Below, one piece after another: positions 36,147-64,000 of a stretch of DNA of 64,000 nt; position 1 is the first letter of the stretch, and every line of letters starts with the position of its first letter. The position numbers were made by a program, and so were the translations under genes. Source of the DNA: Limosilactobacillus caccae (GTDB lineage Bacteria; Bacillota; Bacilli; Lactobacillales; Lactobacillaceae); contig NZ_FTOY01000004.1 of NCBI RefSeq assembly GCF_900156885.1, positions 62,001-126,000 of the forward strand, in the 5' to 3' direction. The notes under the pieces are model-generated. The model made no database searches. It was not told the DNA's origin and saw only the letters and a program-made list of their open reading frames with translations.

Positions 36147-36435
36147 CATAATAATTAATTGAACGTTAAAACATATCGAAAAGCAGAGTAAGTATTGAAC
36201 CTTTTAAGAGAGCTCCTGGTTGGTGAAAAAGAGTAAGGATAGGTGCTGAAGATGGGCTTGGAATGGTATCGATGATTGTTAGTCGATAACGGGTTAGCAC
36301 ACGTTACTAGTGCTAGGTAATTCTAATATTTTTATTAGAGCTACCTACTGAGGTTAGGTCTGTGAGGGCCTAACAAACAAAGGTGGTAACGCGAAGCACT
36401 CGTCCTTTTAGTCAAAGGGCGAGTGCTTTTTATTT
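36147..36435 (+). promoter_or_regulatory. T-box leader of metQNI
   Basis: A full-length T-box: a 5' stem with AGAGAGCTCC and an AGTA-like GAGTAAGGA, the conserved bulge AGGTGGTAACGCG at 36381-36393, and a terminator AGCACTCGTCC / GGGCGAGTGCT with T run at 36394-36433. A GGAATGGTATC segment provides a plausible ATG specifier, matching the methionine transporter downstream. Specifier placement is by eye. Confidence 0.9.
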
Positions 36436-61985: not shown

Positions 61986-63014
61986 ATGACTAAGTTTGTC
62001 CGTCACCGGGCGAAAGAAATGAAACAGTGGGAGCACACCCAGGCAGTCGAATTAACCAAAATCCGTGCTTCCCAACGGCACTTAATTTATAACCTCATCG
62101 CCTACATTGTAATTTCAATTATCGAGTACTGGCTAGCGGAACTCAGTAAGTCACAGACCTTACGGGCGGATGCTTTTAATAACCTATCGGGGATCATCTC
62201 AACCTTCTTGCTGATGATGGGGCTCCACATTGCCCAAGACGTTGACGACGATGATATTATCGGCGCTAAGCTCCCTAACGGTAACTACCAGGCCCACATG
62301 GGATCTGACCAGCGAGTGCAATTTGTCCGCTGGCGCTATGAGACGATTTTTTCGCTCGTCACCGCGATCGTAATGATTGCCATCGCCCTCAGTGTTATTA
62401 TCGACGGAATCAAAGGGCTGCTCAATCCGGCTAGCCGGGTCGTTCCCCAGCCTGTCGCCTTGATTGGGGCGGGGATCGCATCTGTCATCATGCTCGTCGT
62501 CTGGGCGATGAACCGGCAAACCGGGCGGAAGTTAAAAAACGCCGCATTGCTCGCCTCTGCGCAAGACAGCCTAAGCGACGCCTTTACCAGCATCGGAACA
62601 ATGGTGTCAATCGCTGGTGCCCTCCTCTTTGATCTAAAGTGGCTTGATGGCGTCACCAGTATCATCGTCGGCTTCTTCATTCTCTATTCTGGAGCAAAGA
62701 TTTTCTTCGATAGCAGTCTCAACTTGACAGACTACTTTGATCCACAAGCAGAGTTAGAGTACAAGAAGGAAATTATGGCGGTTCCCCAGGTGGTCGCTGT
62801 CCCCGAACTCAAAGCCCACTATAACGGTAACGTGGTCACCCTTGATGCGGCAGTGATGATTGATGGCAACATGACCGTCATCAAGAGTTTCCAGCTGTCC
62901 GAACACATTGAGAGTCTCCTGCGGCAAAAGTTTGGGATCATCGACACGGATATCTCCTTTATTCCCGATCCCGCCTCATTTTCTGACAAGGACGTTAAGG
63001 GCGAATTTGAATAA
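61986..63014 (+). CDS. Cation diffusion facilitator (CDF) metal exporter
   Basis: 342 residues. Six helices; the metal site in helix 2 is RADAFNN and in helix 5 is AQDSLSDAFTS, an Asp/Asn set closer to manganese-type CDFs than to the HxxxD of zinc exporters. The C-terminal 90 residues form the cytosolic ferredoxin-like domain. Substrate (Mn, or another divalent metal) is inferred. Confidence 0.85.
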   Translation: MTKFVRHRAKEMKQWEHTQAVELTKIRASQRHLIYNLIAYIVISIIEYWLAELSKSQTLRADAFNNLSGIISTFLLMMGLHIAQDVDDDDIIGAKLPNGNYQAHMGSDQRVQFVRWRYETIFSLVTAIVMIAIALSVIIDGIKGLLNPASRVVPQPVALIGAGIASVIMLVVWAMNRQTGRKLKNAALLASAQDSLSDAFTSIGTMVSIAGALLFDLKWLDGVTSIIVGFFILYSGAKIFFDSSLNLTDYFDPQAELEYKKEIMAVPQVVAVPELKAHYNGNVVTLDAAVMIDGNMTVIKSFQLSEHIESLLRQKFGIIDTDISFIPDPASFSDKDVKGEFE

Positions 63015-63029
63015 AATTAAAATTAAAGA

Positions 63030-63058
63030 TTGACAAATTAAAATGAGAATGTTTTAAT
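63030..63058 (+). promoter_or_regulatory. Promoter of the nhaC leader
   Basis: TTGACA (63030-63035) and TTTAAT (63053-63058) with 17-bp spacing; the start is expected near 63065, giving a leader of about 300 nt. Confidence 0.7.
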
Positions 63059-63093
63059 AATGTCAACAACAAACGAGAAAGGAAAGAGCTAAA

Positions 63094-63156
63094 ATGATTC
63101 AGCATTCATTAAATACAACAACCAAGTATTATTACAGCAATGCTTATTTTGCGTGA
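63094..63156 (+). CDS. Leader peptide with Tyr codons (20 residues)
   Basis: ATG with AAGGAAAG about 7-10 nt upstream. The peptide begins MIQHSLNTTTK and then has Tyr-Tyr-Tyr-Ser-Asn-Ala-Tyr-Phe-Ala before TGA: four Tyr and one Phe among the last nine residues. Its 5' part lies inside the first arm of the long-range RNA stem. Not seen in any annotation I know. Confidence 0.65.
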   Translation: MIQHSLNTTTKYYYSNAYFA

Positions 63157-63289
63157 TGTCTGTACCTGTTTCGGGTGCGGGCTGAGACGTTCGCACCTGA
63201 GCAGAGTTGTATTTAATGACCTTTGCTAGGTGTTTTCGATCTAGGAAAGGTGAGTGCTTTTTTTAGCACGTTCCAATAACGAACTACCA

Positions 63290-63333
63290 CCAACTAGGTT
63301 GAGCTGCGTCTCAATTACCTAGTTGGTTTTTTA
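63290..63333 (+). terminator. Terminator within the nhaC leader
   Basis: CCAACTAGGT pairs with ACCTAGTTGG, with an inner TTGAG/CTCAA extension, followed by TTTTTT. It stands 35 nt before the nhaC start codon, where it would stop transcription unless prevented. Confidence 0.9.
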
Positions 63334-63366
63334 TTAGCATAATTTAATGTGGGAGGAAAATTACTC

Positions 63367-64000
63367 ATGAACTTCGTTAACAAATCCGCCAATCAAGAGG
63401 AGCCTCATTTTGGCTTCGGTGAAAGTCTTACCATCTTAGTCGTCATCTTATGTATTCTCGGTTACTTAATTATTTTTGAAAAACAAGAACCACAAGCGCC
63501 ACTCTTCATTGCCTTCACCCTGCTTGCCGTTTACGGTAAGTTGCGGGGCTTTAAGTGGGACACGGTGATGGACGGGATGCGGGACGGCTTACGCGCCGGG
63601 GTCGACCCATTAATCATCTTCTTGTCTATCGGGGTCCTAATCGCCACCTGGATCTTCTCCGGCACCATCCCCACCATCATGTACTTCGGCTTTAAGATCA
63701 TCTCAGTAAAGTTCTTCTTGCCAACGGTCTTCATCGTTTGTACCTTGGTCGGGGTTGCCTGCGGAAGTTCATTTACTACTGTATCAACGATGGGGATCGC
63801 CTTCATCGGGATTGGGGCAACCTTGAAAATTAACCCTGGACTAACTGCTGGGGTAATCGTATCCGGGGCCTTCTGTGGTTCCAACATTTCCCCGCTTTCT
63901 GGAACGACTAACCTGGCCGCTAGCGTCGGTAACATCAGCATCTACGAACACATCAAATCCCTAATGATCACCGACATCCCTGCCTGGGCAATCTGTGTTA
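63367..64000 (+). CDS. nhaC: NhaC-family Na+/H+ antiporter-like transporter (partial, runs off the window)
   Basis: First 211 residues visible. FGESLTILVVILCILGYLIIFEKQEPQAPL, LSIGVLIATWIFSGTIPTIMYFG, GSSFTTVSTMGIAFIGIG and FCGSNISPLSGTTNLAAS are NhaC-family motifs. GGGAGG lies 10 nt before ATG 63367. Some members of this family are tyrosine or amino acid transporters rather than sodium antiporters, and several in Firmicutes have a tyrosine-specific T-box; the Tyr-rich leader peptide here points the same way. Confidence 0.9.
   Translation, partial: MNFVNKSANQEEPHFGFGESLTILVVILCILGYLIIFEKQEPQAPLFIAFTLLAVYGKLRGFKWDTVMDGMRDGLRAGVDPLIIFLSIGVLIATWIFSGTIPTIMYFGFKIISVKFFLPTVFIVCTLVGVACGSSFTTVSTMGIAFIGIGATLKINPGLTAGVIVSGAFCGSNISPLSGTTNLAASVGNISIYEHIKSLMITDIPAWAICV

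Follow-up and report, generated by a model that had tools for sequence, protein, structure and literature searches.

The DNA upstream of an nhaC-family gene of Limosilactobacillus caccae very probably encodes a ribosome-mediated transcription attenuator that would read charged tRNA-Tyr and control an NhaC-family transporter, probably one for tyrosine. This reading rests on sequence comparison and on modelling of the leader RNA. It was obtained for the final part of the window, by which we mean the whole analysed stretch of 64,000 nucleotides, and was extended to related leaders. The leader appears to belong to an order-wide attenuator class that the Lactobacillales likely possess beside their T-boxes. 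This class would use a single scaffold with a relay of seven arms, in which the peptide codons are swapped for specificity (Tyr, Phe, Tyr and Phe with Trp, Ile, or Leu). Part of it has been recorded before, in the form of an Rfam sRNA and, probably, of RNAs taken for streptococcal riboswitches. As far as the tools used here show, both the relay of seven arms and the family itself are new, and the underlying logic is leader-peptide attenuation.

The features of the leader are compiled in Table 1. The initial annotation of this DNA had described a 20-codon frame with a ribosome site and a Tyr-rich end, a 13-bp long-range stem and a terminator just upstream of nhaC. All of them were found. The frame encodes MIQHSLNTTTKYYYSNAYFA, with four Tyr and one Phe among the last nine residues, and is preceded by the ribosome site AAAGGAAAG. 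Among 520 frames of the window (ATG-started, 12–30 codons, both strands, nested starts counted separately) only this frame carries four Tyr within its final 12 positions. The long-range stem is exact and joins CATTAAATACAAC inside the frame to GTTGTATTTAATG. The terminator hairpin (63289–63327) has a folding energy of about −19 kcal/mol and runs into a T run. For the complete leader (63066–63340) a folding energy of −97.3 kcal/mol was calculated, compared with −62.3 ± 4.6 kcal/mol for shuffled sequences (z −7.6), and none of 200 shuffles reached the native stability. The gene product scored 359 bits against the NCBIfam nhaC model, slightly below the cut-off of 370; an in-frame GTG at 63349 lies upstream of the nhaC start at 63367.

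Table 1. Features of the nhaC leader region in the window. Percentages give paired cells in alignment A2; fractions give the leaders in which the native partner formed the stronger duplex in the swap test.
Feature	Position	Strand	Characteristics and evidence
Promoter	63030..63058	+	TTGACA 63030–63035, 17-nt spacer, extended −10 box TG.TTTAAT 63053–63058; by eye
Leader-peptide ribosome site	63078..63086	+	AAAGGAAAG; sequence
Leader peptide ORF	63094..63156	+	MIQHSLNTTTKYYYSNAYFA; 20 codons, ATG start, stop TGA 63154–63156; homologous frames in relatives
Arm V	63107..63119	+	inside leader ORF, partner W; exact 13 bp; 19/21 NhaC leaders
Three consecutive Tyr codons	63127..63135	+	TAT TAT TAC; fourth Tyr codon 63145–63147; sequence
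Arm S	63130..63147	+	Tyr-codon region, partner Z/W region; 88.8%; 69/77
Arm X	63158..63166	+	directly 3' of stop codon; X:Y 96.1%; 77/77
Arm Y	63171..63182	+	partner X or Z; X:Y and Y:Z by alignment and swap test
Arm Z	63189..63206	+	partner Y or A; Y:Z 95.2%; Z:A first helix 96.1%, second 63.5%; 74/77 each
Arm W	63206..63218	+	between Z and A, partner V; exact stem, swap test
Arm A	63220..63232	+	partner Z or B, possibly D; A:B 95.3%; 66/77; A:D 59/77
Arm B	63239..63250	+	partner A or C (antiterminator); B:C 66/77; −7.4 kcal/mol
Arm C	63289..63303	+	terminator 5' arm, alternative partner of B; terminator fold, swap test
Arm D	63310..63327	+	terminator 3' arm; C:D −19.5 kcal/mol; 77/77; T run 63327–63332
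nhaC-family transporter gene	63367..64000	+	runs off the window; Pfam Na_H_antiporter 3.2e-47

Boxes resembling those of the promoter were also present elsewhere. At least 107 of 122 leaders, with identical segments taken once, are preceded by a TTGA(C/T) box and, 13–22 nt further on, a TTTAAT- or TATAAT-like box. A simple promoter scan did not report the window promoter, because the scan requires an A at position 2 of the −10 box. In the window (63030–63058) and in related leaders the spacer often reads AAATGAGAATG, along with the TG.TTTAAT −10 box, and a protein operator may possibly be located there. Between arms B and C the stretch GTGCTTTTTTTAGCAC (63252–63269) forms a small hairpin around a T7 run which is a possible pause site. 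Some related NhaC leaders, e.g. L005, contain a similar T-rich stretch.

Downstream of the leader stop codon the arms X, Y, Z, A, B, C and D follow each other, and they would alternate between neighbours: X:Y or Y:Z, Z:A or A:B, B:C or C:D. The pairings were located by eye on the same sequences that were later tested. In alignment A2, which comprises 26 leaders, native helices were largely paired, apart from the second Z:A helix (Table 1), compared with 21–50% of the cells when the same helices were slid by 1–3 columns. The number of double-change cells and the covariation score exceeded those of nearly all column shuffles for each tested helix. The number of pairs with double changes gave a weaker picture: Z:A was no better than the column shuffles (395 of 500 reached the native value), and A:B and S:W were weakly above them (33 and 68 of 500, respectively).

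The pairings were further analysed by an alignment-free swap test, in which the duplex energy of an arm with its own partner was compared with that obtained with partners from other leaders. It covered 21 arm pairs in those 77 of 100 loci for which terminator arms were computed. The test ignores relatedness, and the negative arm pairs share the same relatedness. For all six neighbouring pairs the own partner was the stronger one in 66 to 77 loci (Y:Z 74, Z:A 74, others in Table 1; p ≤ 2e-10), and a signal was also obtained for A:D (p 7e-7). The other 14 arm pairs gave no swap-test signal (31–51 of 77 loci, p ≥ 0.12). In the window the calculated duplex energies were −13.6 kcal/mol for X:Y, −21.7 for Y:Z, −15.2 for Z:A, −14.1 for A:B and −17.3 for V:W. 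Comparative and computed data agree on mutually exclusive pairings that end in an intrinsic terminator.

CTAGGT at 63226–63231 had been suggested earlier to pair with ACCTAG in the terminator as an antiterminator. This pairing corresponds to A:D. The arm is indeed present, forms a duplex of −12.1 kcal/mol and coevolves with its partner. As the antiterminator it is the less likely choice: the support for A:D is weaker, and a chain in which B holds C explains the data better. Complementarity between A and D may moreover be a mere consequence of the chain A:B, B:C and C:D, and Z and B would gain access to A before D does. The antiterminator is therefore best explained by the relay X-Y-Z-A-B-C-D.

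According to the proposed mechanism, a scarcity of tyrosine would cause the ribosome to stall on the Tyr codons, where it would cover S and part of V and leave X free. The covered arms S and V could not hold W and Z. Free X would pair with Y, Z would thereby become available for A, and B would remain free to pair with C before D is made, which would result in readthrough. A:D might then be added late, enclosing B:C. When tyrosine is plentiful, the ribosome would reach the stop codon and cover X, so that Y:Z, A:B and C:D would form and transcription would terminate at the U run. If no ribosome is present, Z and W would be sequestered by V:W and S:ZW, and again the terminator would form. We infer translation of the leader, its dependence on tRNA-Tyr and the order of these events in time; tyrosine would presumably also be the substrate of the window NhaC.

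The effect of the ribosome position on pairing was modelled. For this purpose leaders were folded at equilibrium up to the terminator loop and cut at the leading edge of the ribosome, which was assumed at +13 from the A-site codon; timing is ignored by this model. For the window leader the predicted occupancy of arm C by upstream RNA was 0.80–0.82 when the first or second Tyr codon was in the A site. It fell to 0.28 when the stop codon was there, and to 0.16 without a ribosome. When the edge was moved on, occupancies of 0.84 with Y covered, 0.28 with Z covered, 0.84 with A covered and 0.15 with B covered were obtained. The same edge walk gave the same up-down order for the mean of 121 leaders (0.75, 0.63, 0.81, 0.58, 0.79), wrong frames for L091 and L110 being included in this 121-leader run. 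Across 123 leaders with corrected frames (L130 and L153 left out), the occupancy with the second aromatic codon in the A site exceeded that of the untranslated leader in 117 cases (p 2e-20) and that of the ribosome at the stop codon in 77 cases (p 1e-4). Stalling exceeded the stop codon in 92 of 123 leaders when the A site was placed four codons before the stop. The remaining 46 of 123 leaders in the original comparison, for which stalling was not superior to the stop codon, included the paralogue L003 from the genome of the window (0.56 stalled, 0.65 at stop); among the NhaC leaders stalling was superior in 10 of 13. The model thus predicts that a stalled ribosome differs strongly from an absent one, and in a real but modest way from one at the stop codon. 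Since in the window B:C is weak compared with C:D and A:D (−7.4 compared with −19.5 and −12.1 kcal/mol), antitermination must win by timing.

Such a strong contrast to untranslated leaders (117 of 123) combined with a weak one to the stop codon (77 of 123) would also be expected from a shorter, trp-style attenuator. There, V and S with W and Z would correspond to a 1:2 pairing and Z:A to a 2:3 pairing, and these would do the sensing; the choice at the terminator would then lie between A:B and C:D on one side and B:C (or A:D together with B:C) on the other; X:Y would add little, and a ribosome at the stop codon would hardly matter. V:W and S:ZW alone would let stalling on Tyr codons free Z for A, and the native V:W duplex was the stronger one in 19 of 21 NhaC leaders. 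We nevertheless regard this shorter device as unlikely. X:Y coevolves in 77 of 77 loci, X lies exactly at the position that a terminating ribosome would occupy, and shuffling of X lowered the stalled occupancy of C in 90 of 121 leaders (the set with the two wrong frames). The seven-arm relay is consequently the reading that we prefer.

The distribution of the leader was determined with two covariance models. Model R1, built from alignment A2, matched in 170 of 396 Lactobacillaceae genomes and 25 of 40 genera (E ≤ 0.001). Model R2, built from alignment A4 with 56 leaders, matched in 249 of 395 Lactobacillales genomes and 63 of 80 genera (E ≤ 1e-4). Genomes were sampled for these searches, and the counts of both models include genomes that supplied training loci. 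Across the class, R2 matched in 34 of 398 genomes at E ≤ 0.001, of which 29 belonged to the Lactobacillales. We studied 125 Lactobacillaceae leaders, which are a subset of the matches listed by the R1 search, and 40 further loci, of which 37 came from other Lactobacillales families, one (L226) from the Lactobacillaceae and two (L227 and L228) from outside the order. All of these 40 loci displayed the same scaffold by eye. Three A3 matches (L152:2101, L050:1671 and L076:872) were spurious, lying on the opposite strand at terminators, and weak blastn matches, which lay mostly in the promoter, were excluded from the leader count. The earlier view that an attenuator is atypical for Firmicutes, with T-boxes as the norm, has to be modified insofar as this leader is not an isolated oddity. 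It represents a widespread class in the Lactobacillales.

Frame, aromatic codons, stop position and stems are conserved across genera, in support of the tyrosine-sensing ribosome-mediated attenuator proposed in the initial annotation. Relatives with the stems and without the frame or Tyr run had been named there as counter-evidence; instead, 120 of the 125 leaders keep an aromatic-rich ATG frame. The remaining five start with TTG (four) or GTG (one), and one of them, L153, has a poor ribosome site. Just two aromatic residues are present in the last 12 of L013 and L155. In 124 of the 125 leaders the frame follows a ribosome site that agrees with AGGAGG at 3–6 of 6 positions. Among the further loci, five in one set of 20 (L209, L210, L211, L214 and L227) possess frames with weak ribosome sites. 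A terminator of −12 kcal/mol or stronger was calculated for all 123 refolded leaders.

NhaC-family genes are controlled by Tyr T-boxes in other Firmicutes, as had been noted for this locus before and is confirmed by PMC2494555. A Tyr T-box is extremely improbable for the window leader. No match to RF00230 was obtained at 63000–63400 up to E 10, and the same library detects a T-box elsewhere in the window. This T-box leader (RF00230, 109.7 bits, 36167–36410, + strand) is located before methionine ABC transporter-like genes, which by eye comprise a binding protein, an ATPase and a permease. Thus, T-box and leader peptides exist side by side in this genome. Further Rfam families gave no significant match at the window leader, those found up to E 10 being unrelated, and the enterobacterial leader families gave no covariance-model match at this locus. 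The leader was found in 24 of 30 named NhaC homologues (E ≤ 0.01). The six leaderless homologues are more distant (61–69% identity), and no Rfam match to a T-box at threshold was obtained there. Model R2 detected exactly two leader copies in the genome of the window at E ≤ 1. The second copy (L003) encodes the peptide MTLSTLNNVKNFYYNFAYFI and precedes an MFS transporter and a shikimate dehydrogenase (aroE), followed by a gene that resembles aroD by eye.

The leader codons were compared with the first downstream genes, which were identified through Pfam searches of 20 representatives and, for the rest, through similarity clusters. The comparison covered the last 12 residues of 123 Lactobacillaceae leaders; L130, where a transposase adjoins the leader, was left out, and the peptides of L091, L098, L110, L126, L136, L139 and L154 were assigned by hand. 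Downstream genes encoded MFS transporters (some with a chorismate mutase fusion), NhaC, shikimate dehydrogenase, chorismate mutase, chorismate synthase, EPSP synthase, shikimate kinase, amino acid permeases, a TrpX-like binding protein, peptide transporters and prephenate-dehydratase-like proteins, and a transposase in one case. Leaders with Tyr and neither Phe nor Trp were found for 11 of 13 NhaC, 1 of 76 MFS and 2 of 9 AroE genes; the two other NhaC leaders, among them that of the window, additionally contain a Phe codon. Phe-only leaders precede all five prephenate-dehydratase-like genes and the single TrpX-like gene, and leaders of shikimate and chorismate genes mostly carry Tyr and Phe. 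By eye, 21 of 24 named NhaC leaders, a set overlapping the 13, lacked Phe and Trp. The NhaC leaders L161, L162 and L165 have visible frames with just two Tyr each. The leader residues thus track the downstream gene, in line with the earlier suggestion that tyrosine is the signal.

Some of these genes deserve separate description. In L134 (720–2327) and L137 (612–2129, − strand) an MFS transporter with a C-terminal chorismate mutase domain is located under an aromatic leader. A conserved protein of about 176 residues with the motif TLGPxxTDSxAAA stands behind the Phe-only leaders L072, L075, L080, L150 and L154, the last of which was assigned by the N-terminal motif alone. Pfam gave no family for the L072 protein and its relatives at E ≤ 0.001, with insignificant ones up to E 10, and a comparison of the L072 protein with PDB sequences gave no match. 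Its predicted model had a mean pLDDT of 87 (65–87 for five models from four sequences). The top three Foldseek hits of this model were prephenate dehydratases (E 5e-9 to 4e-7, TM-scores about 0.5), followed by many periplasmic-binding folds. Because of these TM-scores and folds the protein is called only prephenate-dehydratase-like.

At individual codon positions of the distinct leaders an aromatic residue was found in 96 of 103 cases at codon −8, 90 at −7, 78 at −5, 89 at −3 and 92 at −2. TAT, TAC, TTT, TTC and TGG interchange at these positions, and non-aromatic residues are rare. Since the positions stay aromatic through codon exchange, the amino acid, and not the RNA alone, appears to be selected. 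Five of the 40 further loci, all from families other than the Lactobacillaceae, carried Ile or Leu leaders before IlvA, IlvE and LivJ-type genes. The peptide end VNIISIIR (L224) precedes threonine ammonia-lyase IlvA and AIIISIIG (L208) the branched-chain aminotransferase IlvE. AIIISIIIR (L197 and L200) and VLLLLSLIIR (L196) precede LivJ-type binding proteins, the L197 protein matching the LivJ model below its cut-off. Among the sequence evidence, this apparent retargeting to Ile and Leu speaks most strongly for a ribosome that reads the codons. In L024 (1490–1760), and at the same place in L027, a shorter leader of another kind was seen, with an Ile run by eye (MTTSVNTTTQIIISIIIIS) and a terminator. 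The gene after it is similar to the second gene at the IlvE locus L208, and this leader is perhaps a separate Ile attenuator.

The same observations bear on the question whether the structured RNA might be a riboswitch which binds tyrosine or a precursor directly, the short ORF being incidental. Probable streptococcal relatives were indeed called new aromatic-amino-acid riboswitches, with premature termination seen by RNA-seq (PMC4448216), and the leader RNA is highly structured (z −7.6). Against this, frame, ribosome site and aromatic residues of the ORF are retained through changes of the individual codons, and on a constant scaffold Tyr gives way to Phe, Trp, Ile or Leu according to the gene. 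A single aptamer for Tyr and Ile is implausible, which further counts against direct binding. We therefore consider a riboswitch very unlikely and retain ribosome-mediated attenuation as the preferred reading.

If this reading is true, the codons could serve as substrate labels for unassigned transporters, and substrates of aromatic and branched-chain transporters might be predicted directly from them. TrpX-like proteins, as an example, would carry Tyr or Phe, not Trp. Such proteins were found in L158, L189, L209 and L213 behind Tyr/Phe leaders without Trp codons. They scored 320–340 against the TrpX model, and because the cut-off is 390 the Trp label was not accepted; their substrate is perhaps Tyr or Phe.

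Two kinds of previously described RNAs may belong to the same family. RF02863 (sRNA_2410) matched above threshold in 7 of the 40 further loci (L204, L207, L216 and L218–L221; 2 of 20 and 5 of 20 in the two sets), and the alignment of L204 begins at the SYFR codons of the leader. At threshold it matched neither the leader nor any other part of the window, nor 11 other Lactobacillaceae loci. This family is filed as an sRNA without known function; it comprises a 195-nt RNA of E. faecium with two transcripts on Northern blots (PMC5593968), which we take to be the terminated leader. The elements gbs2033 and gbs1262 are located before two S. agalactiae ABC-transporter operons and are conserved in Lactobacillales. 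The gbs2033 element also precedes the E. faecium aroFBC-tyrA operon. Short terminated RNA was seen. Both were interpreted as riboswitches, and section 10 of PMC4448216, which describes them, makes no mention of a leader peptide. Judged by their context, they probably belong to the same family as the nhaC leader.

Discussion of amino acid genes in Lactobacillales mostly centres on T-boxes, and His genes of this order are usually controlled by them (PMC9413887). The leader-peptide system described here is widespread, and its relay is longer than the textbook version. An earlier description of a tyrosine leader peptide or of the relay in Lactobacillales was not found in the open-licence literature, including the examined parts of PMC3166299 and PMC7724050. 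The class offers an explanation for an Rfam sRNA family without known function and probably for published riboswitch candidates. As a long domino-type RNA switch, its timing is testable arm by arm.

Ribosome-mediated attenuation in Firmicutes as such has precedents. For Listeria Rli60 it was demonstrated by mutants, with segments 2:3 and 3:4 (PMC5864092), and S. aureus has an attenuator with a Leu-rich peptide (PMC5794164). Both share the principle with the nhaC leader; their target is branched-chain biosynthesis. Other leader-peptide attenuators were predicted in Firmicutes or their relatives, namely His leader peptides in bacilli, Peptostreptococcaceae and Erysipelotrichaceae (PMC2965389 and PMC9413887) and uORFC-13-1, a Phe uORF before aroF in Acholeplasma (PMC8632094). 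These concern another amino acid or lineage, and a relay is not described in the respective parts of these sources.

In its logic the Lactobacillales leader resembles the classical attenuators of enterobacteria. The trp, his and phe leaders of enterobacteria follow the four-segment attenuation model. They share with the nhaC leader a short peptide rich in the regulated amino acid, an intrinsic terminator, a stop codon immediately ahead of the first of the alternating arms and the termination expected without translation. However, the enterobacterial attenuators consist of four segments, whereas the nhaC leader would operate, in the Lactobacillales, through a chain of seven arms.
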